Assembly (NCBI RefSeq): GCF_902832885.1
Contig: NZ_CADFDK010000006.1
Location: forward strand, 372,001-436,000
Direction of reading: 5' to 3'
DNA: 64,000 nucleotides
Source of the DNA: Burkholderia seminalis DSM 23518
Lineage (GTDB): Bacteria > Pseudomonadota > Gammaproteobacteria > Burkholderiales > Burkholderiaceae
Part shown: one piece after another, positions 9,422 to 40,117 of the stretch
Position numbering within the stretch: position 1 is the first letter of the stretch
How the letters are laid out: the number at the start of each line of letters is the position of its first letter
Made by a program: the position numbers and the translations under genes
The notes under the pieces: generated by a model
Told to the model about the DNA's origin: nothing
What the model saw: the letters and a program-made list of their open reading frames with translations, nothing else
The model's database searches: none

Positions 9422-9443
9422 AACCCGCCGCCGTGGCCGCCCG

Positions 9444-12724: not shown

Positions 12725-12881
12725 GACAGGCTCCCCGGTTGATGTGCAGCCATGATCGGCCATCGATCGCGCCCCGGAAATGCGGAACCGTCGAAGCGGG
12801 CCTCAGGCTGCGCCTGAGACCGGCGCGGCGGTTCCTGCTAACTTATCGGCCATTCGACAACGTCCTCACGCCCCGCCCATC

Positions 12882-13778: not shown

Positions 13779-13807
13779 CGCATGCGGTCTCGTCGATACT
13801 CGGAGCC

Positions 13808-14501: not shown

Positions 14502-14519
14502 TTGGAAAACGTTTTCCAA
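14502..14519. promoter_or_regulatory. LacI-family-type operator palindrome
   Basis: A perfect 18-bp palindrome, ttggaaaacgttttccaa, with the central CG and TGGAAAACGTTTTCCA form common for LacI/GalR-family operators. It lies about 180 bases before the lipoprotein gene at 14699 and is the only strong element in the 14201-14698 gap, where no gene was seen. It probably makes that gene sugar-responsive; no LacI-family gene is in the window. Confidence 0.65.
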
Positions 14520-14698
14520 TTCATCGGCGCGACGTCGGCCACGGTCCGCGCAGGGGAAACGCTTGCCCGCTCGAGTTGTGATTCAGGCCGTCCGCCTTCA
14601 GGGATCAGGGTTGCAAGGCGACGGTCAGGTACGGGCATCGAGCGCGGCAACGGCCACACCCGCCCGTCCTTCATCACTATTCAAAAACTGGAGACACA

Positions 14699-16870: not shown

Positions 16871-16897
16871 ACCGTGTGATTCGCGCCACGTGAACGC

Positions 16898-16930
16898 GCC
16901 CGAAGCCGGCCGCTTGAGCCGGCTTCGGGC
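16898..16930. terminator. Hairpin between convergent genes
   Basis: A perfect 13-bp inverted repeat with a seven-base loop, 27 bases after the lipoprotein stop codon and 45 bases before the end of the convergent permease gene. No clear T-run follows, so it may act as a weak bidirectional terminator or an mRNA-stabilising hairpin. Confidence 0.6.
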
Positions 16931-16974
16931 ACTTCAGCAAGGAGCAGCGCCCACGCGCGGCGCGTGGTACCCGT

Positions 16975-17715
16975 TCACAGCCACCCCGCAACGGCCATAT
17001 ACGCGCCGAGCGCGATCAGCCCGACGAAGAAGCAGCGCTTGAACGCCGTTTCGCTCATCACGCGTCGCGCATACTGCCCGCCGGCCATCCCCGCCAGGGC
17101 CGGCACGAGCGCGAGTGCCGACACGCCGAGGTCGACCGCCTGCAACGCACCCGATACGCGCAACTGCAGGCCGAGCGCGATCGTCGATGCGGTAAACGAC
17201 AGCCCGAGCGCCTGGATCAGGTCGTCCTTCGACAACCGCAGCGCCTGCAGATACGGCACGGCCGGCACGACGAACACGCCGGTTGCCGCCGTCACGACAC
17301 CCGTCAGGTAACCGACCACGGCGGACAGCCATTTCTCGCGGCGTCCCGGCGCGGGCAGCCGCGCGGCGGCCAGCCCCCACACCCCGTACAGGATCAGCAC
17401 GACACCGAGCGCCGCGTGCGTCCACGTGCTGCCGGCCGCGAGCGCGGGCAGCCCGCCCGTCAGCGTGCCGATCGTGAGGCCAGCGAGCAGCGGCCACAGC
17501 CGGCGCAGCAGCGGCCCGAACGACGGGCCGAGGCCCAACTGCCACACGTTGGTGATGAACGACGGCACGAGCAGCAGGCTCGCCGCGGCCGACGGCGGCA
17601 TCGCGAGCGTCAGCAGCCCCATCGCGATCGTCGGCAGCCCGAGCCCGATCATGCCCTTGACCGCGCCGGCCAGCAGGAACACCAGCACGATGATTGTCAG
17701 CGTATGAATTTGCAT
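16975..17715 (-). CDS. TauE/SafE (TSUP)-family permease
   Basis: 246 residues, with about eight hydrophobic segments and the glycine-rich N-terminal repeat GAVKGMIGLGLPTIAMG that marks TSUP proteins; the second repeat (VGYLTGVVTAATGVFVVPAVPYLQAL) starts near residue 140. Members export or import sulfite, sulfoacetate or related anions in the inner membrane. No sulfur genes are adjacent, so the substrate is open. The start at 17715 has a GGAGG-like upstream sequence. Confidence 0.85.
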   Translation of the reverse strand: MQIHTLTIIVLVFLLAGAVKGMIGLGLPTIAMGLLTLAMPPSAAASLLLVPSFITNVWQLGLGPSFGPLLRRLWPLLAGLTIGTLTGGLPALAAGSTWTHAALGVVLILYGVWGLAAARLPAPGRREKWLSAVVGYLTGVVTAATGVFVVPAVPYLQALRLSKDDLIQALGLSFTASTIALGLQLRVSGALQAVDLGVSALALVPALAGMAGGQYARRVMSETAFKRCFFVGLIALGAYMAVAGWL

Positions 17716-17829
17716 GGAGGCGGTTCCATCCGGTCGAGTACGGCGCCGATGGTGCCGCTCCGCCACGCAGCCCGCCATCTGGTTTTGCCTGAGGCTGGCT
17801 AGGCCCCGCCGGACGGGCCGGCCCCTGGC

Positions 17830-18831
17830 TCACCCCCGTCCGTGCTCGCTGTCGAGGTGGGCCATCTGGGCGGCGGGATAACGCTCGCCGGCAGCCGACC
17901 CGGCGGGTACCGCCGCTTCGATGCGGTCGACATCATTGACCGTTAGTTGCATTCTTGTCGCCAGCAAACCGTCCTGCAGCTGCGTGCGCTTGCGCGCACC
18001 GACCAGCGGCACGATGTCGGTGCCGCGCGACAGCGCCCATGCGATCGCGACCTGCGCCGGATTGCTGCCCTTCTCGTCGGCGATCGCACGCAGCGCGTCG
18101 ACGAGCGCGAGGTTGTGTACGAGGTTGTCGCCCTGGAAGCGCGGGCTCGCCGCGCGGAAGTCGCGCTCGCCCTGCCGTGCCGCGCTCCAGCGCCCGCCGA
18201 GCAGCCCGCGCGACAGCACGCCGTAGGCCGTCACGCCGATGCCGAGCGCGCGACAGGCCGGCAGGATGTCGGCTTCGATGCCGCGCGACAGCAGCGAATA
18301 CTCGATCTGCAGGTCGGCAATCGGCGCGACGGCCGCCGCGCGGCGGATCGTGTCGACGCCGGCTTCGGACAGCCCGATATGGCGCACGTACCCGGCTTTC
18401 ACGAGATCGGCGATCGCGCCGACCGTGTCCTCGATCGGCACGGCCGGATCGACGCGCGCGGGCCGGTAGATGTCGATGTAGTCGGTGCCGAGCCGCTTCA
18501 GCGAATACGCGACGAAGTTCCGGATCGCGACGGGCCGTGCGTCGTAGCCGGCAAACCCGCCGGCCGGATCGCGCAGCGCGCCGAATTTCACGCTGATCAG
18601 CACTTGGTCGCGCGCGCGGCCGCGCAACGCGTCGCGGATCAGCATCTCGTTGTCGCCCATCCCGTAGAAATCGCCGGTGTCGAGCATCGTGATGCCGTTG
18701 TCGAGCGCCGCGTGCAGCGTGGCGATGCTCTCGTCGCGGTCGGCCGGCCCGTACAAGTCCGACATACCCATGCAGCCGAGTGCGATCGCCGATACCTGCG
18801 GGCCCGTGCGGCCCAGTTGACGCGTGTCCAT
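17830..18831 (-). CDS. Aldo/keto reductase with altered catalytic tetrad
   Basis: 333 residues, AKR TIM-barrel fold starting [19 protein letters not shown]. Asp51, Tyr56 (DTGDFYG) and Lys82 (SVKFG) of the catalytic tetrad are present, but the usual His in YxxHRxDP is Ala (YRPARVDP, residue 125). The C-terminal NADPH site ([10 protein letters not shown]) is kept. The His loss probably changes pH dependence or substrate class; I recall the variant from other bacterial AKRs but cannot verify this. It is divergent from the LysR gene at 18974, which probably regulates it. Confidence 0.87.
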
Positions 18832-26889: not shown

Positions 26890-27321
26890 TCACCGGGTCG
26901 CCGTGCAGTATCGCTCCAGGCGCTTCGCGACTTCGTCGATCACCTTGACGGGGGCGACTTCCAGCTGCAAATCATGCGTTGTCAGCACCCTCGCGAACAG
27001 ATGGAATGCGTCGCCGTCGAAATGGAAATGCCCTTGGCAACCCGAGGAAAACGCGTGGTTCGCGATCTTTTCCAGGTCCTTGTACGAAGCGTCCTCGACA
27101 TCCCCGTAGCCGTATTCGCACAGGATGCCCGTGGCGATCACGGTCCTCATCAGGACCTGAAGCGCGACAAGCGACCCCACCCCGGCATGCAGCGCTTCGA
27201 GCTGAAGGTGATACTCCAGCGACAAGGCATCGCGTATCGGCCTCGGCAAGGGCAGCAGTTCCGTTTTCGCCTCGCGTTGCGTGCGGCTGGACTGACTGAG
27301 ACGATGAGCCCATTTATTCAC
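26890..27321 (-). CDS. Uncharacterised protein (about 143 aa), last gene of the TonB-tldD operon
   Basis: A cytosolic, mainly helical protein with no signal peptide or membrane segment. It starts VNKWAHRLSQSSRTQREAK (GTG at 27321; a TTG at 27339 is an alternative) and contains LPLPRPIRDALSLEYHLQLEALHAG and a Cys/His pair (SSGCQGHFHFDGDAFHLF). I know similar small Burkholderia proteins with no assigned function. It follows tldD by about 40 bases and ends the long operon, though it could also be a separate small transcript. Confidence 0.65.
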   Translation of the reverse strand: MNKWAHRLSQSSRTQREAKTELLPLPRPIRDALSLEYHLQLEALHAGVGSLVALQVLMRTVIATGILCEYGYGDVEDASYKDLEKIANHAFSSGCQGHFHFDGDAFHLFARVLTTHDLQLEVAPVKVIDEVAKRLERYCTATR

Positions 27322-27361: not shown

Positions 27362-28846
27362 CTATGCGGTGCCTCCGACGGTCATTTCATCCACCCTCAC
27401 GGTCGGTTGGCCCACGCCCACCGGGATCGACTGCCCCGCCTTGCTGCACGTCGCCCTGCCGGGATCGCAGGCGAGATCGTTGCCGACCAGGCTGATGTTC
27501 CGGATGGTATCGGGGCCGTGGCCCGCGATCGTCGCGCCCTTGACCGGCGCGGTGATCCTGCCGTTTTCGATCAGGTAGGCCTCGGATGCCTCGAAGACGA
27601 ACTGACCGCTCGTGATGTCGACCTGCCCGCCCTCGAGACCCGACACGTAGATACCGTTGCGTACCGACTCGATGATTTCCTGCGGCTCGTGGTCCCCGTT
27701 CAGCATGAACGTGTTCGTCATGCGCGGCATGGGCGGCGACGCGTAACCCTCGCGGCGGCCGTTTCCGGTCGGCTCCATTCCCATCAACCTCGCGCTCAGC
27801 GCATCCTGCATGTACGCGCGCAGCACGCCGTTCTCGATCAAGGTCGTGCGCCGCGTCGCGCACCCTTCGTCGTCGATATTCAAGGAACCGCGGCCCCCCT
27901 GGAGCGTTCCGTCGTCGACGATGGTCACGTTCCCGGACGCCACCTTTTCGCCGAGGCGTCCCGCGAAGGCGGACGTCCCGCGGCGCACGCCGTCGGCTTC
28001 CAGTCCATGGCCGACCGCTTCGTGCAGCAAGACGCCATTCCAGCCCGGGCCGACCACCACCGTCATTTTTCCGGCCGGCGCCGGCCGCGCCTGCAGCTTC
28101 GTGAGGGCGGCCGTCACACGCTCCCGCACGAAGGTACGAAGTTCGTCGTCATCCCACGTCCGGATGCCATAGCGCCCGCCGATCCCTCCGCTCGCGCTCT
28201 CCACGCGCGCGCCGGACCTGACGCGCACGTTGATCCACAAGGCCAGTTGCGGACGCACGTCGCCGCCACTCAGGCCGTCGCATCGCGCGATCCAGATCGT
28301 TTCATGCACGGCGCTCAGCACGGCATGCACTTCGATCACGCGCGGGTCGGCGGCCCGGGCGATCTCGTCGAGCGTCTTCAGCAGCGCGATCTTGTCCGCT
28401 CCCTCCGTCGTCCGCAACGGATGAGCCGGGTCGTAGAACGATCGTGCCGTTGCAACCGGCCTGCGCTGCATCGCTGCCGAGCCGTCACGCGACATGCCGC
28501 TTCCGGTTTCGCTAAGTCGCGACGCAACATGCCGGAGCGCCATCGCGTCGATGCGTTGCGAACTCGCCAGCGTCGCCTGCTCTCCCTTCAACACGCGCAG
28601 TCCGAAGCCGCTATCGCAACGATACGAACTCGCGCGCACGGCCCCGCCTTCCAGCGACCAGGATTCCGCGGTCGTTTCCTTGAGGAAGACATCCGCAAAG
28701 TCCCATCGCTGGCCGAGGGCGATGCCCATCGCGGAAAAAAGCGCCGTTTCGTCGATGCCATGCCGGTCCAGCAGCGCGTGCCGCGCCAGCGTGCGGATCT
28801 CCTCGCGGGCAGGCCGCAATACCTGCCGCTGCTTCATGTCACTCAT
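27362..28846 (-). CDS. tldD: TldD-family metalloprotease subunit
   Basis: 494 residues, near full TldD length. The zinc motif HEAVGH (HExxxH, residues 275-280) followed by GLEADG is intact, and the C-terminal hallmark with Cys (DPGRATCSKAGQSIPVGVGQPTVRV) is present. TldD with TldE/PmbA forms a heterodimeric protease that degrades unfolded peptides threaded into its cavity and matures microcin B17. The start lies three bases after the stop of tldE, so the pair is translationally coupled. This is probably an extra, operon-specific copy rather than the housekeeping pair, because of its TonB-linked context (inference). Confidence 0.9.
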   Translation of the reverse strand: MSDMKQRQVLRPAREEIRTLARHALLDRHGIDETALFSAMGIALGQRWDFADVFLKETTAESWSLEGGAVRASSYRCDSGFGLRVLKGEQATLASSQRIDAMALRHVASRLSETGSGMSRDGSAAMQRRPVATARSFYDPAHPLRTTEGADKIALLKTLDEIARAADPRVIEVHAVLSAVHETIWIARCDGLSGGDVRPQLALWINVRVRSGARVESASGGIGGRYGIRTWDDDELRTFVRERVTAALTKLQARPAPAGKMTVVVGPGWNGVLLHEAVGHGLEADGVRRGTSAFAGRLGEKVASGNVTIVDDGTLQGGRGSLNIDDEGCATRRTTLIENGVLRAYMQDALSARLMGMEPTGNGRREGYASPPMPRMTNTFMLNGDHEPQEIIESVRNGIYVSGLEGGQVDITSGQFVFEASEAYLIENGRITAPVKGATIAGHGPDTIRNISLVGNDLACDPGRATCSKAGQSIPVGVGQPTVRVDEMTVGGTA

Positions 28847-28849
28847 GTT

Positions 28850-30208
28850 TCAAGCTCCCCCGATCTTCATTGCATCGATCAGCCACGATCCGGAGGTCGC
28901 CCATCCCCTCGTCAACGCGTCGCTGCCGATCGCCTGTAGTCCGCCGAACATCCGGCGGAGATTCGACGCTATCGTGATACCGCTCACCGGGAAGCGGATC
29001 TCGCCGTCTTCCACCCAGAACCCCTTGGCGCCGCGGGAGAAATCGCCGGTCAGGCGGTTCACGCCGCCGCCGACCATCTCCGTGACCAGAAGTCCGCGAT
29101 GCAGCTTCCTCAGCATCGCGGCGAAGTCGTCGCCGGGCTGGGTCCGTGTACTGCGCATGTCGAGGTTGTGAGGCCCGTAGCCGTTGCCGGTGGGCGTCAG
29201 GTTCAAGCGGCGCGCCGCATAAAGTCCGAGAAACAGCCCGCGCAGGCGGCCGTCCTCCACCACCTTGCGGCGCCCGCCCGGAATGCCGTCGCTGTCGAAG
29301 CAGCGGCTGGCCATCCCGCGCCTGACGAATGGATCCTCGTCAAGCTGGACATGCGGCGGAAACAACGGCGCGTCGATGTCATCCTTCAGGAACGATCCGC
29401 TCCGGTACAGCGCATCCCCCGATGCCGAGGACACCAGTTCGGCCAGCAGCCCCAGCGACGCCGACGGCTCGAACAAAACCGGGCATTGCTGCGTGGGGAC
29501 TTGCGTCGCGCCGAGCGCGTCGATGGCTCGCCTGGCGGCCAGCGCCCCGACCTCCTCCGGTTTCGCGAGATCGTCGAATGCGCGACTTGCATGGCCCCAG
29601 AAACCGATCTGCTTCTCGCCGGTGCCGAACGCGACGGGCGCACATGCGATCGAATGGACGGACCACGGCGCCGTCGCATGGAACCCCGCCGACGTGGCCA
29701 GCAACGACGTGCCCGACATCGTTCTCACCGTCACGCCCTTCGACGCCTTGATCGACGGGTCATGTGCGAACGCCGCATCCTCGGCGCGTTGCGCATGGGC
29801 ACCGATATCGTCGAGCGACCAATCCAGCGGGTGATGGAGATCGAGATCGGGAAAGTCCCTGGCCAACTGGCTCGAATCGGCGAATCCGGCCGCGGGATCG
29901 GGCTCGGTTGCGGCGGTACTCTCGATCGCCGCGCGAACGATCTTTTTCAGCCCGTCGTCCGACAGGTCCGACGATTTCGCGAAAGCGCGTTTTCCGTCGC
30001 GCAATACCGTCACCGTCATCTCCAGGGTGCCGCAAAAACTGCGTTCCGTCTGTACCCGGTTCGTCACGGTCACGGCGCTCGATTCGGCGGCCTCGATCTC
30101 CACGCGCGTCCCCTCGGCACCCGCCTGCCGCGCGAACGCGATCACACGCTCCGCCGAACTCGCCAGTTCAGCGGCAACGGTTTGCAACTGCGTACTGCTC
30201 GATTGCAT
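28850..30208 (-). CDS. pmbA: TldE/PmbA-family protease partner
   Basis: 452 residues, typical of PmbA/TldE, the non-catalytic partner of TldD; it lacks HExxxH as expected. Recognisable features are the N-terminal helical region (ASSAERVIAFARQAG), the central GSFLKDDIDAPLFPPHVQLDEDPF part and the C-terminal FSRGAKGFWVEDGEIRFPV / TIASNLRRMF motifs conserved in the family. It is 42 bases after the thioredoxin-fusion gene and directly precedes tldD. Confidence 0.9.
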   Translation of the reverse strand: MQSSSTQLQTVAAELASSAERVIAFARQAGAEGTRVEIEAAESSAVTVTNRVQTERSFCGTLEMTVTVLRDGKRAFAKSSDLSDDGLKKIVRAAIESTAATEPDPAAGFADSSQLARDFPDLDLHHPLDWSLDDIGAHAQRAEDAAFAHDPSIKASKGVTVRTMSGTSLLATSAGFHATAPWSVHSIACAPVAFGTGEKQIGFWGHASRAFDDLAKPEEVGALAARRAIDALGATQVPTQQCPVLFEPSASLGLLAELVSSASGDALYRSGSFLKDDIDAPLFPPHVQLDEDPFVRRGMASRCFDSDGIPGGRRKVVEDGRLRGLFLGLYAARRLNLTPTGNGYGPHNLDMRSTRTQPGDDFAAMLRKLHRGLLVTEMVGGGVNRLTGDFSRGAKGFWVEDGEIRFPVSGITIASNLRRMFGGLQAIGSDALTRGWATSGSWLIDAMKIGGA

Positions 30209-30250
30209 CAGCCTGCTCCTCCGCCATGCGGCATCGTGTCGTCGAATGCG

Positions 30251-31474
30251 TCAGGCGGTCTGCCCGGTGAGCGCGATCAGCATGTCGCCGATCGCGCTGC
30301 CCCGCTCGGCCGCGGCAAGATGGCCGTCCTCGTAATAGGACAGGAAACGCCCCACGAGTTGAGGATCGACCTCCGCCGCCCGCTCCATCAGCGCGCTGCC
30401 CCGCGGCGGCTCGACACCGGCGTCGATTGCCTGCTTGAAGACACCTTCCGCCAATTGATTCAAGCGCGCATCGTCCTGCGCGCCCCAGTTGCATTTGACC
30501 TGAAGCCATTTCCGCACGGAGCTGCAAAGTGAAAAGACGAATTCCTTCAAGACGTCCGGATTCCGGGCCAACGACGACGAAGCGGCCTCCAGCACCTCGG
30601 CGGCCACGGCAGCACTCCCGTCGCCGAGTTCGGCCGCCGCCGCCCTGGATGCCTGTCGGACGTCCGCCCAGTTCGCGTCCGCCACAGGAGCGCCGTCCGT
30701 TTCCGCCGCGTGCAGCGAAACCAGCTCGTCACGAATCGCCAGCAACCTCGATTCTCCCTCCAGCGTGTCCGAGACGATCCGGCTCGACAGGATCGACACC
30801 AGCAGCCGGCCGGGCAGCGTCGAGAGATTCGCGCCGACCGGCACCCTTTCCAGCCAGTCCGCCACGAACAGCGCCGCCTTGAAATGGGTGCCTCGATAGC
30901 TCGACAGGACCGTCACTGCCTCGACCACATCGGTCGGCATGCCCAACACGGATGCGCACTCGTCCGGATCATGCGAGTCGGCGACGAATTCCAGTGCGCC
31001 GCTGATCTTGTCCGGCCACATGGGGGTGTCCAGAGCGGCTTGCTTGTGATCCAGATAATCGCGCAACCGTGCGATGCGCGCCGCTTTCACCTGCGGATCA
31101 CCGCCGAACGCGCGAAGCGTCACTTCGGGCCTGGCCAGCTGCGTGACGGTTCCCAGGTGCGCATCGAGATAACTCGCCAGTTGCGTGGCCGACCGGGGGC
31201 CCACGATGCGGCCCGCCTCGTGGCCGCCGTTCATGAGCACCAGGGCGGGAATGCCACGCACACCGAAACGCTCGCGCAAGGACGGATGCTCGTCGACGTT
31301 GACCTTGACGATGTCGACCTTGCCGTCGAAGTTCCGCGCCACCTTCTCGAGCGTCGGCGCCAGCGCCTTGCACGGCCCGCACCATTCGGCCCAGAAGTCG
31401 ACCAGCACCGGACGGCTGTTCATCATCACGTCGGCCTCGAAGCTCGCGGCGGTCACACTTTTCAAATCGCTCAT
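30251..31474 (-). CDS. Thioredoxin domain fused to an unrecognised helical domain
   Basis: 407 residues. Residues 1-110 are a complete thioredoxin fold with active site WCGPC (31-35), DFWAEWCGPCKALAP and the cis-Pro region RGIPALVLMNGG. About 290 residues follow that are rich in helix and not recognised. E. coli CnoX/YbbN also joins a thioredoxin to a helical domain, but it is shorter and its TPR repeats are not evident here. No signal peptide, so it is cytosolic. The position between the ABC transporter and tldE suggests reduction or chaperoning of an imported client before proteolysis (inference). Confidence 0.8.
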   Translation of the reverse strand: MSDLKSVTAASFEADVMMNSRPVLVDFWAEWCGPCKALAPTLEKVARNFDGKVDIVKVNVDEHPSLRERFGVRGIPALVLMNGGHEAGRIVGPRSATQLASYLDAHLGTVTQLARPEVTLRAFGGDPQVKAARIARLRDYLDHKQAALDTPMWPDKISGALEFVADSHDPDECASVLGMPTDVVEAVTVLSSYRGTHFKAALFVADWLERVPVGANLSTLPGRLLVSILSSRIVSDTLEGESRLLAIRDELVSLHAAETDGAPVADANWADVRQASRAAAAELGDGSAAVAAEVLEAASSSLARNPDVLKEFVFSLCSSVRKWLQVKCNWGAQDDARLNQLAEGVFKQAIDAGVEPPRGSALMERAAEVDPQLVGRFLSYYEDGHLAAAERGSAIGDMLIALTGQTA

Positions 31475-31553
31475 TTCACGTTCCTGTCCATCAGTTCGGT
31501 TTTGTCGGAGCTTGCCCCCGGTGAGGTGCAAGCGTCCTGACGGGATCACGGTG

Positions 31554-33335
31554 TCATGCCGGGCAGGCAGACGAAGCCGGGCCGGTCAGGCCGGCCGCGA
31601 CCGCGGATGCCCGTTCCGGCGAAAAGTCGAGGGTCTGCTGATGAAAGGCCAGCAACGCCTGTCGATGCGCGACGCTGAGGATCGTGGCCTGAGGTAGCCG
31701 GTCGATCAGCAGTTGGTAGAGCGTTCGCTCGCTCTCGGTGTCGAGCGCCGACGTGCATTCATCGAGAAATATCGTGGTCGGGCGGGCCAGCAACACGCGT
31801 GCGAACGCCACCCGCTGCTGCTCTCCGCCGGAAAGCCGGTCGCTCCAGCGATCGGCGTCCAGCATCGATGCAACGTGCGCATCGAGGCCGCATGCGCGCA
31901 GGACGTCCGCGCATTGGCCGTCGGTGTACGTCGATTCCTCGTGCGGATACGCGATCGCCGCCTTCAACGTGCCGACGGGAATGTAGCTGCGCTGCGGAAC
32001 GAACATCGTTCCTTCGGCACCGCAGGTGACGATTCCCTCGCCGTAGGGCCAGAGGCCCGCGAGCGCTCTGAGCAGCGTGCTTTTCCCGCTTCCGGAGCGC
32101 CCGCGGATCAGACAGCGCGAACCGGGTGCGAGCGAGAAGTCGGGCACGCGGGCAATCTCCGCGCCGGCTGCGTCGCGCAGAACCAACCCGTGGGCGCCTA
32201 CGGCTCCGCGCTCGCCGGCGGTCAACACGACGTTTCCCCGCGAATCCAGCGCGTTCACGTAGAGAAATTCCCGAAGCCGGTTCGCTTCGGCGCGCCACGC
32301 GGTGAATCCCAGATAGGCCTGCGGAAAGAACGCCAGGGAACTGGACACGGAACTGAATGCTGCGTTCGATTGCATCAGCCCACCCAGCGTCAGCCCCCCC
32401 GTTATCAGTTGCGGCAATACCAGCAACGTGGGCACCACGGGCACCACCGAGCTGAATTGCCCGACGATGTTGGTAAACAGCGAGACCCGCGTGTTGACCC
32501 AAAGCAGCGCATAAAGATTCGAAACGACCTGGCGAAAAGCCCCGTTCAATCGCTTGCCTTCCGCGCCGCTTCCATCGAAGAAGGCGATCTGCTCGGCGAA
32601 TTCGCGCACCCGCACCGTCAGCACGCGGAAGTCGCCCTCCACGCGGTTCTGCTTGGCATTGAGGGTGATCAAGCGTCGGCCGAGCAGGTGCGTGGCCCAG
32701 AAAAACAGGCCTTGATAGAGAAAGACGGCATAGACCAGGTATCCGTGGATGCTGTACGTGTGTCCACCGATATCGAGATCCAGGGAATGGCCGATCGACC
32801 ACAGGATCACGCTGAAGCTCACGATGCTCACCGGCACCTGAAGCACGCCCATCGACAGCTGCAAGGTGTCCTTGACGAACTGCTTCGCATCCTCCGCGAT
32901 ACGCTGATCGATGTTCTCGAGCGCGCGGTCGCGCTCGATGCGGTAGTAGGTATGGCGGGCCAGCCACTGATCGGCCAGCCAGGTCGTCAGCCATCGCCGC
33001 CAGCGAATCTCGACGATCGATTGCATCACCACCGTGGACACCGTCAGCGCGGCGGCGGCCATGGACACCAGCAGGAACTGCAACAGCAGGTTCGGCAGCG
33101 CCTGAAACCTCCCGGATCCCACGGCGTCGTAGAACGTGCCGGTCCATCGGTTGAGCCACACGGCGATATAGGTGTGGCTCCAGCCCGCCCCAAGCACGTA
33201 GGCGAGCATCAATGCCGACAGCATGCCCTCCCTGGTGGTCCAGTACGGCGTGATCAACTTCCAGACGGAAGGAAAGTGACGTCTGGCATCCCGATCCTCT
33301 GCGCGATCCGTCGGGAATGCCCGATTCCTGATCAT
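31554..33335 (-). CDS. ABC transporter with fused membrane and ATPase domains (SbmA/BacA-YddA-like)
   Basis: 593 residues. Six membrane segments lie in the first 350 residues, with the ABC_membrane_2/SbmA-like pattern (WRRWLTTWLADQWLARHTYYRIE, then NIDQRIAEDAKQF). The ATPase domain has Walker A GRSGSGKST, signature LSGGEQQR and Walker B TIFLDECTSALD. Related proteins (SbmA/BacA without ATPase, mycobacterial Rv1819c with it) import peptides, bleomycin or B12. Its start overlaps the exbD stop by four bases, so it is coupled to the ExbBD-TonB genes. It is the likely inner-membrane step for whatever the receptor imports, but export is not excluded. Confidence 0.87.
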   Translation of the reverse strand: MIRNRAFPTDRAEDRDARRHFPSVWKLITPYWTTREGMLSALMLAYVLGAGWSHTYIAVWLNRWTGTFYDAVGSGRFQALPNLLLQFLLVSMAAAALTVSTVVMQSIVEIRWRRWLTTWLADQWLARHTYYRIERDRALENIDQRIAEDAKQFVKDTLQLSMGVLQVPVSIVSFSVILWSIGHSLDLDIGGHTYSIHGYLVYAVFLYQGLFFWATHLLGRRLITLNAKQNRVEGDFRVLTVRVREFAEQIAFFDGSGAEGKRLNGAFRQVVSNLYALLWVNTRVSLFTNIVGQFSSVVPVVPTLLVLPQLITGGLTLGGLMQSNAAFSSVSSSLAFFPQAYLGFTAWRAEANRLREFLYVNALDSRGNVVLTAGERGAVGAHGLVLRDAAGAEIARVPDFSLAPGSRCLIRGRSGSGKSTLLRALAGLWPYGEGIVTCGAEGTMFVPQRSYIPVGTLKAAIAYPHEESTYTDGQCADVLRACGLDAHVASMLDADRWSDRLSGGEQQRVAFARVLLARPTTIFLDECTSALDTESERTLYQLLIDRLPQATILSVAHRQALLAFHQQTLDFSPERASAVAAGLTGPASSACPA

Positions 33336-33754
33336 TGCTGTCCCTTGTCCGGTTGCATGACGAAATTGATCTTGTTCAGCCCGCCGCCCTGCAACGCCGC
33401 GAGTATCGTGGCGACCTTCCCGTATTCGACGTGCTCGTCGGCATTGATGTTGACGGCCGGTGGATCGCCCTGCTTCGACGCCGCCTCGACACGCAGCTTC
33501 AGCGCCGCATCGTCGACTACATCCTTGTTCCACAGCACGGTCTTGTCAGCCGTGATCGACAGGTCGATGTCCTGCGTTTTCGACTGGGCGGGTTGGGCCG
33601 CGGCCTTGGGCAGATCGACCTTCACCGCCTTGTTGATGACCGGCAGCGTCACGATGAAAATGATCAGCAGAACCAACATGACGTCGATCAATGGCGTCAT
33701 GTTGATGTCGTTCATCACGCCTTCGTCGTTGTTGCCATCCATGAGAATCGACAC
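33332..33754 (-). CDS. exbD: ExbD biopolymer transport protein
   Basis: 140 residues, single N-terminal membrane helix (MTPLIDVMLVLLIIFIVTLPV, with the essential Asp of the ExbD/TolR family) and a periplasmic domain ending in NADEHVEYGKVATILAALQGGGLNKINFV. It works with ExbB to convert proton flow into TonB movement. It lies 13 bases after exbB. Confidence 0.93.
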   Translation of the reverse strand: MSILMDGNNDEGVMNDINMTPLIDVMLVLLIIFIVTLPVINKAVKVDLPKAAAQPAQSKTQDIDLSITADKTVLWNKDVVDDAALKLRVEAASKQGDPPAVNINADEHVEYGKVATILAALQGGGLNKINFVMQPDKGQQ

Positions 33755-33767
33755 GATAGGCTCCCGG

Positions 33768-34502
33768 TCAGGCGGCGGCGTTGACGCGCTTGCTCGTCGC
33801 CGGCGCCGCGGGCACCGGGCGAACGTCGCAGCGGGCCTTGGCGCCCGTCACGAAGTACACGTGCAACTCGTGCACGAACCGGTTCAGCCGATGGCTCACC
33901 CGCTTGTTGCCTCGATTGACGTAGTTGAATCCGAGCACGGCGGGGATCGCCACGAACAGGCCGATCGCCGTCATGATCAGCGACTCGCCGACCGGGCCCG
34001 CGACATGATCGAGGCTGGCCTGTCCCGACACGCCGATGGCCATCAGTGCGTGATAGATGCCCCACACGGTCCCGAACAGGCCGACGAACGGCGCGGTACT
34101 GCCGATCGACCCGAGAATGGCCAGGCCGTTCTGCAGGCGGGCAACCTCGTCGTCGAACGCGTTGCGCAGGCCGCGCGCCACCCATTCGCTGCTGCTGAGG
34201 CTGCCTTGCAGCGACGCGTCGCCGCCGGCCTGCTGGTCGTTCGCCTCGCGGCCGGCAAGGGCCACGGCACGATACGGATTGTCGGTGCCGTCGCCCAGCG
34301 CCTCGATGCCGTCATCGAGCGACGGCGTGGACCAGAAGCGCGTCTGCGCACGCTTGCCCATGACCTCGAGACGTCGATTCGCCAGGCCCTTGGTCACGAT
34401 GACGAACCACGACACGATCGACATGCCGAGAAGAAAGACGAAGATGAACCGGGTGATGAAGTCGCCCTGCTGCCAGACGTTGGCGATGCCGTACTGTTCC
34501 AT
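33768..34502 (-). CDS. exbB: ExbB biopolymer transport protein
   Basis: 244 residues, MotA/TolQ/ExbB family with three membrane helices (about 15-38, 120-145, 165-190). The motif FVGLFGTVWGIYHALMAIG and the following IMTAIGLFVAIPAVLGFNYVN are standard ExbB proton-channel regions. The ATG at 34502 is preferred because GGAG lies seven bases upstream; an upstream in-frame ATG at 34532 overlaps the tonB stop. Confidence 0.93.
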   Translation of the reverse strand: MEQYGIANVWQQGDFITRFIFVFLLGMSIVSWFVIVTKGLANRRLEVMGKRAQTRFWSTPSLDDGIEALGDGTDNPYRAVALAGREANDQQAGGDASLQGSLSSSEWVARGLRNAFDDEVARLQNGLAILGSIGSTAPFVGLFGTVWGIYHALMAIGVSGQASLDHVAGPVGESLIMTAIGLFVAIPAVLGFNYVNRGNKRVSHRLNRFVHELHVYFVTGAKARCDVRPVPAAPATSKRVNAAA

Positions 34503-34524
34503 TTTTTGCTCCGTAGATTCCAGG

Positions 34525-35280
34525 TCAATCATTCAGGTTGAAGGCGATCGGCTGCTCGGCCTCTACGGCACGGGCAATACCGGCGGTCGTGTAGGGCTGG
34601 CAATGGCCGGCTTCGATCGCCGCCAGCGCGGCCGCATCCAGCAGCGGGTAGCCGCTGCTTTGCGCAACCCGCGCCGTCTTCACCACACCGTCCACGCCGA
34701 TGTTCAGCCTCACCACCACCGTGCCTTGCTGCTCCAGCCGCCGGGCCTTCGGCGGATAGTCCGGCCGCGGGATACGGCAACCGAGCTGCTTGAGCTCCGC
34801 GCTGCTGATCTGCTTCGGGCTATCGAGCAGTTGGGGGCCCGGCGCGGGTGCGGGCGGTGTCGCTGCGGAGGGCGCGACCGCGCTGGGCACCGGTACCGGC
34901 GGCGCCGGCGGCGCCGGCTCGACCGGTTTGACGGGCTCGGTCTTGGCTGGCGCGACGGTCCGGGCAGCAGGAGCCTCCGAGGAAAGCAAGGGTGCCGTCT
35001 TCCGCACCACGGTCTTTTCGACGGGCTTGGGTTCCGGCTTCCGCTGAGGCTCCTGCTTGGGCTTCGGTTCCGGCCGCGCGACGGGCTCGGGTGTCGGCGC
35101 GGCAACGAGCCTGACCTGAACCGACGCACCGGAGGCCCGGTCGGCCTCCAGCCTGATCAGGTCCACGCTGCGATGAACGATCAGATACAGCCCCAGTGCG
35201 TGCGCCAGCACGACCGCGCCCCCGATCGCCGCGCGCCGCCATCGCGCCCGCGAATGAGTGATGCGCTCAGGATTCGACAT
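34525..35280 (-). CDS. tonB: TonB energy transducer
   Basis: About 251 residues. One N-terminal membrane anchor (about 15-37, with a His near HALGLYLIVHR), a long Pro/Glu/Lys-rich periplasm-spanning region (PEPKPKQEPQRKPEPKP), and a C-terminal TonB domain (PRPDYPPKARRLEQQGTVVV onward, ending in YPLLDAAALAAIEAGHC). The ATG at 35280 has a GGAG site; an in-frame ATG at 35322 overlapping the receptor gene is possible. It is dedicated to the receptor 31 bases upstream by gene order. Confidence 0.92.
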   Translation of the reverse strand: MSNPERITHSRARWRRAAIGGAVVLAHALGLYLIVHRSVDLIRLEADRASGASVQVRLVAAPTPEPVARPEPKPKQEPQRKPEPKPVEKTVVRKTAPLLSSEAPAARTVAPAKTEPVKPVEPAPPAPPVPVPSAVAPSAATPPAPAPGPQLLDSPKQISSAELKQLGCRIPRPDYPPKARRLEQQGTVVVRLNIGVDGVVKTARVAQSSGYPLLDAAALAAIEAGHCQPYTTAGIARAVEAEQPIAFNLND

Positions 35281-35311
35281 GCCGCCGCTCCACGGCCGAG
35301 TCTCGAGGGTG

Positions 35312-37708
35312 TCAGAAATCATAGGTACCGGTGAGCATGACGGTCCGCTCCGGTCCCATCGGGATCAAGGAGGGCGTCGTGCTGCTGTAGTAGAGCTTGC
35401 GATTGAATACGTTCTTGACCGAAAGATTCAGGCCGTAACCCTTCTTCCGATAGAACACGCCGAGATCCGTCTCCACCTGGCTGGGGATGCGATACGCCGA
35501 GCCCGTGCCGATGTACTGCCCACTCGCGAAGAACAACCCCGCGCCGACACCGAAACCCTGGAGCTTCTCGGAGCGGAAGTTGTAGGTCGCCCACAGGCTG
35601 GCGCTGTTCTTGGGCAGGTTCACCGCCAGCTTGCTGTTCGGCGGCTGCACGAAGTCGTTGTACGTGTAGCTACCGATCAGGTTGACGCCGGGAAGCGGCT
35701 GGCCGCTGATCTCCGCTTCGAATCCGCGACTCACTGCGCCGCCGGCGGGAAGATAGAAGCCGCGATGGGCCGGGTCGGCAACGTTGTAATTGCTGAACGA
35801 GGTGCGGTAAGCCGAGGTCGTGATGGCCAGCTTGTCGTCCAGCAGGTTGAACTTCATGCCCACTTCGACCTGCTGGCTGGTTTGCGGGGGGAGCACGCCG
35901 CCGCCGAATTCAAGCGCCGTGCCCGGCTGAAAGCCACGGTTGTAGCTGGCGTAGGCGGCAACCTCGGACGTCAGTTCGTAGAGCAGGCCGAGGCTCGGGC
36001 TATACGCATTCTGATGGTTTCCCGGGGGTGGGTTACCGGCGTAGGTCGCATGTGTCAGATAGGTATCCCGGCGCACGGACGCGAGTGCATGGAAATTCTT
36101 GTAGGAGAACTGATCTTGTAGATACAAGCCGGTTTGGGTGAAGTAGGTAGTCCCATTCGGCATCAGGTTTCCCGTGTCGGAAGACGGAAGCGTAAATGAG
36201 CCGAAGACATTCGGAATGGAAATGAATTTCGATGTCGTGGTGTCAAACTGATGCTGGCTGTAGCGAAGAACGTCCCAGCCAGCAATCACCGTATTTTTCG
36301 CAGCGCCGACATTGAACTTGGCGCGCAGGTAGTTCTGGAAGCTCCAACTGTAGAAATCCGAGAGCGAATCGAAATTGTGGAACAACACGCCGTTGGTCGC
36401 CGAGAGCGGCGTGGCCGTAGTCCAGGCTTGCTGCGTTTGTTGGGTCCGCGTATAGGAACCCTTGCTCACGAAGGTCAGCGCCGAGCCGAGCTTTTGTTCG
36501 AGATGAATGAAAATATTGTCCGTTTGCGCGCCGAAATGGTCGGACGGCGTGCCAAGCGGCTTGTCGATATAGTTTCGATAGATATCGCCGGCAGCATGGC
36601 CGAGCGTGAACTGGGGAACCGGCTCGCGGTAGACCGTGCGCTCATAGCCGACCGTCACATCCGTGGTCGAGTCCTTCCATTGCACAGTCGGCGCAAAGTA
36701 GAAATTTCTCTTGCCGTCATATCCCATCGAATTCTGGCCGACCCGTTCACCCGAGATGATGAAGCGATACCGGAGTTTCTTGTCGGCGGTGATCGCGCCC
36801 GTGCTGTCCAGCGCGATCTGGGTGTCGCCGTACGATCCGTAGCCCACCTGGATTTCATGAAACGGATCGGCCTGCGGCGTCTTCTTGACGAGATTGATGA
36901 CGCCTCCCGGCGGACTGTTGCCATTCACGATGGCCGAGGGTCCCTTGACCACTTCCACGCTCGAGATGGCGATCGTCGGCGTAACGTTAGGGGCCGTCCC
37001 GACAGTCGACAATCCATCCGACGTGAGGTTTTGCGCTACAAACCCGCGAATCGTGTAACTCGGCACGCCCAGCGGCCCCGGCCGCGTGACGACACCGGAA
37101 GCATTCCTCAGCACATCGGAGAGCGACTGAGCACCCTGGCTCTGGATCACCGCGGCATTGATGACGCTGACCGATTTCGGCGTCTCGCTCAGCGGCACAT
37201 CCGAGCGCGCATAGGTGGAGGACGATTCCGCGACGAAGCCGGTACCGCCTGAATCCCGGCTGGCCGCCACGCTGATGAGGGGCAAGGTGGTGTCCACCTG
37301 CGCCGTGGTCGCCGCGGCTGCGGCTGCGGCAGCGGCCGGCGCCGACGAAACCCCCTTGGCATCCGCCTTGACGTGAGCCAGCGTGTAACCGCCGTTCGCC
37401 GTCGGAACCAGGTCGAGGCCCGTGCCCTGCAACGCCTTGCGGATCGCGGCCTCGGCCGAATACGTGCCGTCCACCGGCGCCGATTTGAGCGACTGCACCA
37501 ATGACGCGTCATAGCTCAACGGAAGCTGCGCGACCCGGGCGATCTCCACCAACGTGCGATCCAGCGGACCGCTCGGCAGATGATAGGTGTGTTGTTCCGC
37601 CTGCTGCGCATACGCCGCGGACACCATGAAAGTCTGGGCAACCGCCATTGCGATCGCCATTGCCGCAACGTTGCGGGCCATACCCTTGCCGTCGAACTTG
37701 ATCCCCAC
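35312..37708 (-). CDS. TonB-dependent siderophore-type receptor with N-terminal signalling (STN) domain
   Basis: About 798 residues from a GTG at 37708 (ATG at 37681 is the alternative). A signal sequence ends SAAYAQQ. The STN domain follows (YHLPSGPLDRTLVEIARVAQ to GLDLVPTANGGYTLAHV), as in FpvA/FecA-type transducers. Next come the plug (SVINAAVIQSQGAQSLSDVL, GPSAIVNGNSPPGGVINLVKK) and a 22-strand barrel ending in Phe (TYDF). The pattern is that of FhuE/FpvA-like receptors. The STN domain implies signalling to a FecR-type anti-sigma, one of which is encoded 0.9 kb upstream. First gene of the operon; ligand unknown, no synthesis genes nearby. Confidence 0.92.
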   Translation of the reverse strand: MGIKFDGKGMARNVAAMAIAMAVAQTFMVSAAYAQQAEQHTYHLPSGPLDRTLVEIARVAQLPLSYDASLVQSLKSAPVDGTYSAEAAIRKALQGTGLDLVPTANGGYTLAHVKADAKGVSSAPAAAAAAAAATTAQVDTTLPLISVAASRDSGGTGFVAESSSTYARSDVPLSETPKSVSVINAAVIQSQGAQSLSDVLRNASGVVTRPGPLGVPSYTIRGFVAQNLTSDGLSTVGTAPNVTPTIAISSVEVVKGPSAIVNGNSPPGGVINLVKKTPQADPFHEIQVGYGSYGDTQIALDSTGAITADKKLRYRFIISGERVGQNSMGYDGKRNFYFAPTVQWKDSTTDVTVGYERTVYREPVPQFTLGHAAGDIYRNYIDKPLGTPSDHFGAQTDNIFIHLEQKLGSALTFVSKGSYTRTQQTQQAWTTATPLSATNGVLFHNFDSLSDFYSWSFQNYLRAKFNVGAAKNTVIAGWDVLRYSQHQFDTTTSKFISIPNVFGSFTLPSSDTGNLMPNGTTYFTQTGLYLQDQFSYKNFHALASVRRDTYLTHATYAGNPPPGNHQNAYSPSLGLLYELTSEVAAYASYNRGFQPGTALEFGGGVLPPQTSQQVEVGMKFNLLDDKLAITTSAYRTSFSNYNVADPAHRGFYLPAGGAVSRGFEAEISGQPLPGVNLIGSYTYNDFVQPPNSKLAVNLPKNSASLWATYNFRSEKLQGFGVGAGLFFASGQYIGTGSAYRIPSQVETDLGVFYRKKGYGLNLSVKNVFNRKLYYSSTTPSLIPMGPERTVMLTGTYDF

Positions 37709-38012
37709 GATGCACCCATCCCTAGTCGGTTGTATTTCGGCAAAACGCCTGTCTTGTCCCACACGATCGAGAAGTCGGGAAGCAGCGGCCAACCGCAACG
37801 GCATGCCTTCCCCCTTCACTCCCGGCTTCGCTCGAGGCCGCCGGCCCCGGCAGGCTTGCCGGCTCCTCATCCACATGAAAAAGTCTAGCGATCCTGCCCG
37901 GAATACTTTTTTGAAAGAATTCGTCGTTCGCGCCATTTCCGGTTTTTTATTCCCACCGACCGCGCCGTCCTTGAAAATTCAATCCAGCAGGCGGAATCCG
38001 CAGACAAGAAAA
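37709..38012. promoter_or_regulatory. Leader/promoter region of the receptor operon
   Basis: About 300 bases between the receptor start and the end of the Lrp-type gene on the same strand. The stretch 37900-38000 is AT-richer and is the likely site of a FecI-dependent promoter. I see no Fur-box that I can defend and no coding frame, including any candidate precursor peptide. Confidence 0.4.
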
Positions 38013-38477
38013 TCAGCAAACGTAATCGAGGGGCAACCTCGTCGTATGCTTGATGGTCTCCATCGAGAAACTCGAACTCACATCGAAAATTTCCAGCTCG
38101 CTGATCAAGCGCTTGTACACGCCGTCATACCCGGCAATGTGCGGAACGACCACCTTCAGCAGGTAGTCGATATGACCGCTCATGCGGTACACCTCGATCA
38201 CCTCGGGGATGTCGGCGACCACGTCGCAGAAGCGTTTGAGCCAGGCCGCGGTATGCTGCGCAGTCCTGATTTCGACGAGCACGGTCACGCCGACATTGAG
38301 CTTGTCGGCGTCGAGCAGAGCAACCCGGCGGGCGATGACGCCGTCCTGCTCGAGCTTCTGTATGCGGCGCCAGCAAGGCGTCGTCGACAAATGCACGCGA
38401 TCGGCGATTTCCGCCACTGAAAGCGTGCTGTCCTCTTGCAGGACTGTCAGGATGGCCTTGTCGATATGGTCGATCAC
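38013..38477 (-). CDS. Lrp/AsnC-family transcriptional regulator
   Basis: 154 residues. N-terminal HTH (IDHIDKAILTVLQEDSTLSVAEIADRVHLSTTPCWRRIQKLE) and a C-terminal RAM ligand-binding domain. It uses a GTG start at 38477. Such regulators respond to amino acids or small peptides-related metabolites. It lies between a terminator behind fecR and the receptor operon, so it is probably its own transcript and may co-regulate the operon. An amino-acid sensor next to a peptide-processing operon is suggestive but not proof. Confidence 0.88.
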   Translation of the reverse strand: MIDHIDKAILTVLQEDSTLSVAEIADRVHLSTTPCWRRIQKLEQDGVIARRVALLDADKLNVGVTVLVEIRTAQHTAAWLKRFCDVVADIPEVIEVYRMSGHIDYLLKVVVPHIAGYDGVYKRLISELEIFDVSSSFSMETIKHTTRLPLDYVC

Positions 38478-38582
38478 AGTTCCCCCCTTCGGGACAAGGT
38501 AAGCGTCGCAGGCATTCGGACGCCTTCATTCACCTTGTGCAACGAAGCGGGAAAAGTGACACCGGGAAAGAAAAATTTTTTT

Positions 38583-38606
38583 CGCGCCCCGGCTGAACGG
38601 GGCGCG
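38583..38606 (-). terminator. Intrinsic terminator after fecR
   Basis: A perfect 9-bp GC stem with a six-base loop, four bases beyond the fecR stop. Read on the minus strand it is followed by a run of A then TTTTT. It separates the fecI-fecR transcript from the Lrp gene and the receptor operon. Confidence 0.75.
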
Positions 38607-38609
38607 GCG

Positions 38610-39584
38610 TCAAGCCTCGGAGGCGACGGCCAGAACCTTGCCATACACGGCCAGGGAGAGTCCCAGGCCGTTGGCGAGCTGGTGCAGCGCCGCCTCGGCG
38701 TCGTTGAGCGGGAACACGCCGCTGACCCGGCGAGCGAGCGCGGTCTGCGGAAACCGGATATAGCCGCCGTAGTAGCGGCCCAGCGTCTCGAGGATGTCAG
38801 GCAGCGGCCGATCCAGGACGACGAGCGTGCCGCGGCTCCAGGCGAAGATGTCGGCGGCCGTCTCCGGCATGCGGGCAATGCGCCCCGGCGATAGCGACCA
38901 GACCGAACCATCGGCGATGCGGACGCTACCGCCGCGCGGCGTCGCAAGGGTTGCATCGCCGCCCTGCACCGCGACCACGGTGTGATAACGCAATGCATCG
39001 ACGCTCAGGCGGGCGCGGCTCGTGATTGCCGTCCCGTCCCGCGTCCTCACGGCGAACGGCGAGCGGTTCGTCGTGGCGGGACTCGACAGGATCTGGCCGG
39101 ACGCAAGATAGACGTCGCCGCGCGCGCCGTCCCGCGTCCAATAAACACGCGCCGATGCCCCGAGGACGATCGGCGTTCCGTCTTTCAGCGCCACGGCCTG
39201 CGGCGTCAGATCGCCATTGTGATAATCGGCGTCGAGCGAATAGGCCCGGACCAGTTCTCGCGTCCCGATCGCGGCCAGCGCCAGCGCGCCCACCCCGGCG
39301 CCCGCCTTCAACATGCGGCGCCGCGCACGGGACGGCTCGTTCAGCGCGCTTCGCACCGCCGTGCCGGGTGCGTTCCGCAGCGACGCAAACCGTGCCAGCC
39401 CTTCCTGGAGCCGTATCCACGCCGCTTCGTGCGCGGGATCGGCGCGGCGCCATGCCTCGAAGCCATCGCGATCCTGCTGCGTGGCGTCCTCGGCACGCAA
39501 CCGGACCTCCCACTGAATGGCTTCCTCCGCGCACGAATCGACCGTGCCGGCGCCGCGCGCGGCATTCAACTGATCAGAAAGCAT
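38610..39584 (-). CDS. FecR-family anti-sigma / signal transduction protein
   Basis: 324 residues. The N-terminal cytoplasmic DUF4880-type segment (AIQWEVRLRAEDATQQDRDGF, then AHEAAWIRL), one membrane helix after RRRMLKAG (about 91-110), the periplasmic FecR domain (GDVYLASGQILSS), and a C-terminal STN-like part (DRPLPDILETLGRYYGGYIRF) that should touch the receptor's signalling domain. It overlaps fecI by 19 bases. It should hold the sigma factor until the receptor binds its ligand. Confidence 0.9.
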   Translation of the reverse strand: MLSDQLNAARGAGTVDSCAEEAIQWEVRLRAEDATQQDRDGFEAWRRADPAHEAAWIRLQEGLARFASLRNAPGTAVRSALNEPSRARRRMLKAGAGVGALALAAIGTRELVRAYSLDADYHNGDLTPQAVALKDGTPIVLGASARVYWTRDGARGDVYLASGQILSSPATTNRSPFAVRTRDGTAITSRARLSVDALRYHTVVAVQGGDATLATPRGGSVRIADGSVWSLSPGRIARMPETAADIFAWSRGTLVVLDRPLPDILETLGRYYGGYIRFPQTALARRVSGVFPLNDAEAALHQLANGLGLSLAVYGKVLAVASEA

Positions 39585-40117
39585 CGGGTAAGCGCCTGGG
39601 CGATGTATTTGCGAACCATGCTTGTCGAGACGCCGAGTCGAGCGGCAATCTCGGAATAAGTGAGGCCGTCGATCTGGCTGTAGATAAAGGCACTTCTCGC
39701 TTTCGGAGGCAATCCATCGAGCGCCTGATCGATCAGGAACAATGCCTGGGAAATCTCGACGATCGATTCGGCGGACGGCGCGAGGGGTTCCTCGGCATTG
39801 AGGAGCGCCTCATGATACGCGCGCTCGAGATCCCGGCGGCGCCACATCTCGAAGGCGAGACGCTGGGCGATGACGGTCAGCCACGCTCGAGGCTCGCGAA
39901 TACCCGGCGGGTCATCGACGCCGGCAAGCGCCTCGAACGACGACGACGCCAGATCCTCGGCATCGGCCGGCGATCCGACACGCCGCAGCAGCTTCGCCTT
40001 CAGCCATCCGTAGCTGGCCCGAAACTCGTTGGCAAGCCAAACCGAGCGGGAACGAGCCGACTCGTCGTCGCTCCTTTCCAGTTTGTCGAGAGGCTGTGCT
40101 GCCGGGCCAGTGCTCAT
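39566..40117 (-). CDS. FecI-type ECF sigma factor
   Basis: 183 residues. Sigma region 2 (FRASYGWLKAKLLRRVGSPADAEDLASSSFEAL) and region 4 (LDGLPPKARSAFIYSQIDGLTYSEIAARLGVSTSMVRKYIAQAL) with the FecI-type C-terminus. ATG at 40117; a longer frame upstream is not needed. Paired with the overlapping fecR gene. It is expected to drive the receptor operon downstream when the ligand is bound, following the FecIRA model. Confidence 0.9.
   Translation of the reverse strand: MSTGPAAQPLDKLERSDDESARSRSVWLANEFRASYGWLKAKLLRRVGSPADAEDLASSSFEALAGVDDPPGIREPRAWLTVIAQRLAFEMWRRRDLERAYHEALLNAEEPLAPSAESIVEISQALFLIDQALDGLPPKARSAFIYSQIDGLTYSEIAARLGVSTSMVRKYIAQALTRCFLIS

Follow-up and report, generated by a model that had tools for sequence, protein, structure and literature searches.

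We analyzed a 64,000-nucleotide stretch of the Burkholderia seminalis DSM 23518 genome (contig NZ_CADFDK010000006.1, positions 372,001 to 436,000 of the forward strand; hereafter the window), which carries on its minus strand a block of 12 genes, of which the first, fecI, starts with the ATG at 40117 and the last, a small gene, ends at 26890. In order, these genes encode a FecI-like extracytoplasmic function (ECF) sigma factor, a FecR-like regulator, an Lrp/AsnC-family regulator, a TonB-dependent receptor with an STN signaling domain, TonB, ExbB, ExbD, a fused ATP-binding cassette (ABC) transporter, a thioredoxin fusion, TldE, TldD, and a small protein, with families assigned using Pfam and NCBIfam cut-offs (Table 1). 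A first-pass annotation of this DNA had placed the genes from the receptor to tldD on one strand at close spacing, and this description held: the named families scored above their Pfam cut-offs, the receptor carries the STN domain, and successive genes either overlap by 11, 8, or 4 bases or are separated by 13, 79, 42, or 3 bases. It had also put fecI and fecR just upstream; both are present and overlap by 19 bases, but an Lrp gene and gaps of 132 bases (fecR to lrp) and 331 bases (lrp to receptor) part them from the receptor. The annotation's gene list was right for the genes that it named but overlooked the Lrp regulator and the small last gene, which follows tldD after 40 bases.

Table 1. 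Genes of the block in transcriptional order, with positions in the window.
Feature	Position	Strand	Family evidence
FecI-like ECF sigma factor	39566..40117	-	Pfam Sigma70_r2/r4; NCBIfam sigma-factor subfamily above cut-off
FecR-like regulator	38610..39584	-	Pfam DUF4880 and FecR
Lrp/AsnC-family regulator	38013..38477	-	Pfam AsnC_trans_reg
TonB-dependent receptor, N-terminal STN signaling domain	35312..37681	-	Pfam STN, Plug, barrel
TonB	34525..35322	-	Pfam TonB_C
ExbB (ExbB/TolQ family)	33768..34532	-	Pfam MotA_ExbB
ExbD (ExbD/TolR family)	33332..33754	-	Pfam ExbD
BclA/Rv1819c-like ABC transporter, SbmA/BacA-type membrane domain and ATPase	31554..33335	-	Pfam ABC_membrane_2, SbmA_BacA, ABC_tran
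Thioredoxin (WCGPC) with C-terminal domain of ~280 residues	30251..31474	-	Pfam Thioredoxin; NCBIfam TIGR01068
TldE (PmbA)	28850..30208	-	Pfam PmbA_TldD domains 1-3
TldD, HEAVGH motif	27362..28846	-	Pfam PmbA_TldD domains 1-3
Conserved small protein, last gene of block	26890..27321	-	52-99% identity in relatives, same place

The block is a real, conserved, and patchily spread system that is carried partly on plasmids. In 72 comparisons with six relatives, the ratio of nonsynonymous to synonymous substitution rates (dN/dS) was 0-0.44 across all 12 genes. The Lrp gene was 83-100% identical in these relatives with a dN/dS of at most 0.08, and the small gene after tldD, which matched no Pfam or NCBIfam model, had a dN/dS of 0.08-0.41, indicating that it is a real gene. 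Promoter- and terminator-like sites within the block did not rise above shuffled sequence. Chance grouping of the genes was rejected on the basis of the low dN/dS values and of recurrence in relatives compared to control stretches.

The grouping, whose absence from relatives would have counted against the first-pass annotation, recurs in Burkholderia, Trinickia, and Paraburkholderia, where it is rare and patchy. The C-terminal domain of the thioredoxin fusion (C-domain) was detected at 1e-6 in 18 of 398 genomes sampled from the host's own family, in one of 369 sampled from its class (the own genome), and in 5 of 200 sampled from the family of G398, a genome of another family. In a 200-genome family sample, the 22 further members of the own genus all had their best matches at about 1e-33, which is the level of the thioredoxin domain alone. 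Carriers include the non-pathogenic Trinickia dinghuensis, in which the block is complete (L036/L040), 52 Burkholderia glumae plasmids, one B. cenocepacia record, and two Paraburkholderia caribensis records, and a Burkholderia metagenome-assembled genome holds the end of a block (L041). Some carriers are of plant origin, with B. glumae coming from rice and one P. caribensis record from Mimosa. The thioredoxin-fusion match was split into more than one piece in 34 of the 52 B. glumae plasmids, and a B. glumae chromosomal locus (L123) has a complete block. On two of the plasmid loci (L042 and L043; 18061-19829), sfnG and a flavin mononucleotide reductase gene, both of sulfur metabolism, follow the cluster.

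For statistics on gene content, we applied a tblastn panel to 29 loci of the thioredoxin-fusion family (the window, L035-L038, L044, L045, L118-L137, and joined stretches for genomes G072 and G398) and to 20 arbitrary stretches of ~20 kb from relatives' genomes; two C-domain matches (G1089:C3:258461 and G1135:C4:38691) and L041, L042, and L043 stood outside the panel. Twelve loci of this set showed all 12 genes (the window, L036, L037, L044, L045, L118-L123, and L126), with L037 counted as complete because its FecI was seen in L078. The receptor was found in 22 loci, the ABC transporter in 25, both in 22, and both together with a peptidase in 19, compared to 0/20 controls in each case. Neither receptor nor transporter was found in L127, L129, L130, or L035, which is a remnant; L038 stops at a contig edge, L124 is a remnant with pieces of the transporter, and L137 has the transporter together with receptor pieces below threshold. 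Arrangement also varies: L044, L121, and L122 have fecI on the opposite strand, at the far end, ~1.7 kb separate receptor and TonB in L045 and L119, and TonB in L044 matched as two fragments that lie in different reading frames.

The peptidases of these clusters are exchangeable, with TldDE in Burkholderiaceae and S9, M3, M17, or M24 enzymes in another family. The block is followed by a gene for a PepN-type M1 aminopeptidase in Trinickia and P. caribensis (that of L036 passes the NCBIfam PepN equivalog), and one Trinickia cluster also has an M81 peptidase. The G072 cluster has separate genes for thioredoxin and the C-domain, together with FecR, FecI, M24, M1, Lrp, the receptor-to-ABC genes, TldE, TldD, DUF2891, a cysteine-dioxygenase (CDO)-like gene, and thioredoxin reductase (TrxB). 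In G398, the C-domain is fused to an S9 peptidase; the same stretch has a receptor, an ABC transporter, a thioredoxin, ExbB, two ExbD proteins, M17, M24, and a weak match to TonB, and no TldDE was found in it. Clusters in G1199, G1321, and G1257, likewise of that other family, contain S9 and M3 enzymes. Mere housekeeping was rejected as an account of the accessory PepN, TrxB, and M3 genes in the genomes tested, as further copies lie elsewhere: a second PepN was present outside the cluster in 4/4 genomes and a second TrxB over cut-off in 3/3, and M3 had additional copies in 3/3. The own genome has one PepN and one TrxB. Thioredoxin reductase and a CDO_I-family gene (Pfam E-values 1.2e-9 and 4.4e-11; no NCBIfam match) each occurred in 3/29 loci and 0/20 controls. 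MocR-type regulators (6/29 loci compared to 2/20 controls) and DUF2891 (3/29 compared to 1/20; L076 10599-11621, L123 3728-4723, and L126 15142-16143) were not counted as evidence. L134 encodes an aminotransferase-V/rhodanese protein. The S9 enzyme of L085 was considered as a lasso-peptide isopeptidase and rejected (lasso_peptidase model, 76 bits; cut-off 400).

TldD and TldE of the block each have three PmbA_TldD domains, and TldD keeps the HExxxH motif as HEAVGH. Both miss the NCBIfam equivalogs, TldD just under the cut-off (512.2 bits; cut-off 513) and TldE at 330.6 bits (cut-off 438), in keeping with a paralogous pair. The first-pass annotation had asked whether this pair might be the only copy in the genome; it is not, because a tldD-type gene lies on contig C5 and a pmbA/tldE-type gene on contig C1, giving four PmbA/TldD genes in all. 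In a tree of 52 rows, in which the other genomic copies were presumed to be housekeeping, block-type proteins of Burkholderia, Trinickia, and Paraburkholderia formed clades apart from the presumed housekeeping proteins, both for TldD (10 rows, 100/100) and for TldE (14 rows, 99/99). With copies on C5 and C1 and separate clades, the reading of the block tldDE as housekeeping genes was rejected. G072 TldD joined the block-type side (97/92), and the TldE proteins of G072 and G016 branched elsewhere on long branches. The cluster tldD and tldE of G1099 fell inside Burkholderia clades of presumed housekeeping genes, so that TldDE either joined clusters of this kind on two or more occasions or were replaced by gene conversion; judged by this placement, the G1099 pair was seemingly recruited from housekeeping genes. 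G016 and G1099 also share another gene order, TldD-ABC-TldE. Locus L131 of G1099 (3603-18180) holds two tandem versions of the cluster, one of them incomplete, and an equally spaced tldD/tldE pair lies on contig C1 of that genome, pointing to repeated duplication.

The ABC transporter matched ABC_membrane_2 (5.9e-47), SbmA_BacA (1.5e-20), and ABC_tran, all above cut-offs. BclA proteins have this architecture, an SbmA/BacA-type membrane domain fused to an ATPase. The best solved structure in a search of PDB sequences was 6tqe (249 bits), which we take to be Rv1819c. An order-wide search with the transporter alignment gave matches at 1e-120 in 77 of 399 genomes, and the only match at ortholog level was the own block (1209 bits; next 513). 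Among the 29 next-best transporter loci (L047-L075, with 1.5-kb flanks), only L050 had a receptor and a thioredoxin as neighbors. According to the available text of a 2025 survey of SbmA, BacA, and BclA (PMC12003926), BclA occurs in 32 of 60 Burkholderiales species; that text yielded no match to synteny, neighborhood, or thioredoxin, and TonB and operon appeared only in reference titles.

The thioredoxin part of the fusion is well defined (Pfam 2.1e-30, TIGR01068 above cut-off, WCGPC kept), and by eye the protein does not start with a signal-peptide-like stretch. For the C-domain (~280 residues; 30251-31093), searches of Pfam, NCBIfam, and PDB sequences turned up no relatives. Besides its fusion to an S9 peptidase in G398 and its stand-alone gene in G072, a thioredoxin with a C-domain relative lies near J-domain- and Hsp70-like open reading frames (ORFs) in L127 of G1133 (by eye; 850-5365 and 9749-10872), a locus without a detected receptor or ABC transporter and possibly a chaperone setting for this domain. 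A second copy in the own genome (L035, C3:80000-99900) was rejected as a functioning system. What is left of it, at 9031-10620, is a thioredoxin fusion with an in-frame stop beside a fragment from the 3' end of the small gene (92% identity over 52 residues), and no transporter or TldDE of the block's type was found in that 20-kb stretch.

An ECF sigma factor, FecR, and an STN receptor, the combination that marks FecIR-type cell-surface signaling, are all present, and FecI and FecR scored below the cut-offs of the NCBIfam FecI models and FecR equivalog. For ExbB and ExbD, the NCBIfam TolQ and TolR models outscored the ExbB and ExbD models, with all four below cut-off. The Lrp regulator may resemble DecR/YbaO, which senses cysteine. 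A response of YbaO to cysteine is in print (PMC7373191, available passages). Between the window and L121, synonymous divergence (dS) of the receptor gene (35312-37681) was 0.35, far below the rest of the block (0.99-1.49 for nine genes, 0.64 for ExbB, and 0.73 for ExbD); this difference suggests that the receptor was exchanged by recombination. Elsewhere in the window, at 3007-8338 on the other strand and ~19 kb away, lies an operon for a dipeptide-type ABC importer (by eye; a binding protein, two permeases, and two ATPases).

Taken together, the block probably serves surface-sensed uptake of a peptide followed by reduction and proteolysis in the cytosol. The receptor would bind a peptide outside the cell and its STN domain would signal to FecR and FecI, turning the genes on; TonB, ExbB, and ExbD would power entry of the ligand into the periplasm, and the BclA-like transporter would move it into the cytosol. 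There, the thioredoxin fusion would reduce disulfides or keep the peptide open and TldD/TldE would cut it, with PepN, aminopeptidase P, S9, M3, or M17 enzymes doing or completing the cutting in relatives, where the cysteine-dioxygenase-like enzyme may deal with released cysteine. Gene content, conservation, the separate tldDE lineage, the swapping of peptidases, and the extra copies of accessory enzymes are the observations that carry this reading, and the direction of transport, the cytosolic reduction, and the proteolysis are what the protein families predict. The first-pass annotation had proposed just such a route from outer membrane to cytosol ending in proteolysis, and recurrence of the block, unrelated peptidases in relatives, and extra copies where tested argue for this prediction. 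The SbmA/BacA-type transporter and the peptidases point to a peptide ligand. The presence of TrxB in 3/29 loci and of the CDO-like gene in 3/29, with the aminotransferase-V/rhodanese protein of L134 as a further clue, tilts the choice toward a cysteine- or disulfide-containing peptide, which is quite possibly the ligand, although we would not yet bet on it; the M24 and S9 enzymes are a weak clue for proline. The benefit to the cell, whether nutrition or removal of a harmful peptide, can be suggested only more weakly. More speculatively, such clusters may form a modular class of peptide-eating systems not described before, in which a signaled receptor and a BclA-type importer would take whole disulfide-bonded peptides into the cytosol, these being cysteine-rich peptides of plants or fungi or ribosomally synthesized and post-translationally modified peptides (RiPPs) of competitors, and in which thioredoxin and its new partner domain would unfold them and pass them to interchangeable cytosolic peptidases (TldDE, S9, M3, M17, M24, and M1), with cysteine catabolism attached; we offer this fuller picture tentatively and regard it as doubtful as a whole.

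Several points weigh against peptide uptake and breakdown. The 29 loci are not independent, as close kin include the window with L118 and L120, L044 with L121, L045 with L119, and the B. glumae copies, and linkage to thioredoxin is no result, because the loci were picked by the thioredoxin fusion. Of the 22 loci with receptor and transporter, three (L125, L128, and L133) yielded no peptidase, and the B. glumae plasmid loci L042, L043, and L125 keep the genes from lrp to the thioredoxin fusion without FecIR, TldDE, or the small gene. CDO-like and TrxB genes do not lie beside the block of the window, and PepN and M24 genes of the own genome are elsewhere. Transporters of the Rv1819c group can also move non-peptides such as cobalamin. 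Finally, the receptor passes the NCBIfam TonB-siderophor subfamily model TIGR01783 (279.6 bits; cut-off 223.5), and its closest solved structures in the search of PDB sequences were the enantio-pyochelin receptor and CntO/FoxA. This receptor evidence belongs to the main rival, uptake of a xenosiderophore or peptidic metallophore, in which the transporter would import the metal-loaded peptide whole and TldDE and thioredoxin would break the ligand and free the metal. The closest receptors of solved structure take their names from enantio-pyochelin, pseudopaline/ferrioxamine, and ferrichrome, and FecIR control is typical of such receptors. However, no candidate Fur box stood out from chance in the regions preceding fecI, lrp, and the receptor (the best site agreed with the consensus at 11 of 19 positions, compared to a mean best of 9.5 and a maximum of 13 in single-strand shuffles of the fecI region), and the block proteins include no ferric reductase, FhuF, or binding-protein-dependent importer. 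The first-pass annotation had likewise noted that a periplasmic binding protein, a reductase, and siderophore synthesis genes were missing; no binding protein, ferric reductase, or synthetase is among the 12 proteins, with the rest of the window judged by eye from ORFs. Lrp and the PepN, M3, M17, S9, and cysteine-related genes of relatives also suit peptide catabolism better, and we consider a metallophore rather unlikely.

Immunity or counter-defense, that is, import and destruction of a harmful cysteine-rich plant or fungal peptide or a competitor's RiPP, would use the same machinery, so that its probability overlaps with that of peptide uptake in general. BacA-type import is thought to protect rhizobia, the transporter is BclA-type (papers on SbmA/BacA/BclA, available in part: PMC12003926 and PMC10128002), and some carriers come from rice or Mimosa; TonB-driven import of a toxin would nevertheless be risky, FecIR induction and the PepN and CDO genes of relatives fit nutrition equally well, and this purpose is distinctly unlikely as the specific one. 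TldDE take part in processing microcin B17 (cited in the available text of PMC5209427), and by analogy the pair might mature a peptide made by the cell, with the receptor retrieving the product. Maturation is very improbable: no modification enzyme or precursor gene was recognized in the block or its flanks (ORFs by eye; no dedicated RiPP search), and related clusters have general peptidases where TldDE would be. A precursor peptide in the ~670-base interval between fecR and the receptor was rejected, as this interval holds the Lrp gene. Protein uptake of the Fus/YddAB-PqqL type, with a ferredoxin-like ligand, resembles the block in bringing together a receptor, a TonB-like protein, a protease, and an ABC transporter fused to its ATPase (PMC5095587, available passages), but none of the 12 proteins is an M16 protease, the receptor matches siderophore-receptor structures, FusA is not among the 22 structures listed at 1e-20, and we give this alternative hardly any credence.

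Peptide uptake with cytosolic breakdown, if true, would add a route for whole peptides into the Gram-negative cytosol and would bear on plant-microbe contact and on peptide antibiotics. TldDE is widespread with few known substrates, and there is debate over what SbmA/BclA importers do in nature. Because the block ties TldDE and an SbmA/BclA-type importer to one receptor and a dedicated thioredoxin, both questions become testable, and a ligand found to induce the sigma factor may answer both. In the open-license PMC literature, at the level of titles, abstract starts, and passages, no paper stood out as describing this gene combination. In B. terrae facing a fungus, four genes for predicted peptide-antibiotic-processing peptidases and a TonB-family gene are reported to be upregulated (PMC5209427, available passages).

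Compared to known systems, the block shares FecI, FecR, and an STN receptor with FecIRA and other surface-signaling receptors but has Lrp between FecR and the receptor and runs on to peptidases. It shares the receptor subfamily TIGR01783 with classical siderophore uptake loci, whereas its proteins include no binding-protein-dependent importer, reductase, or synthesis genes (flanks by eye). Like the importers SbmA, BacA, BclA, and Rv1819c, its transporter has an SbmA_BacA/ABC_membrane_2 membrane domain, fused to an ATPase as in BclA and Rv1819c, but it is grouped with its own receptor and peptidases. Relative to the known TldD/TldE (PmbA) protease, the block has full three-domain proteins and HEAVGH in TldD, but its pair is paralogous, falls in separate clades, and is tied to a transporter; available passages of PMC7688217 describe two TldD genes in another operon, with a MoxR-like ATPase. 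Functional parallels are FusABCD of Pectobacterium, whose ligand is a protein (PMC5095587, available passages), and YddA-YddB-PqqL of E. coli, whose clusters likewise combine a TonB-dependent receptor, a TonB-like protein, and a fused ABC transporter of the YddA type. In those systems, an M16 enzyme predicted to be periplasmic (FusC/PqqL) is the protease, so the block is not a member of that group; its TldDE and thioredoxin, in which no signal peptide was seen by eye, would act once the ligand has crossed the inner membrane, and it adds FecIR, Lrp, ExbB/ExbD, and a siderophore-type receptor. By this analogy, the block would work like Fus/YddAB-PqqL uptake while being built differently.

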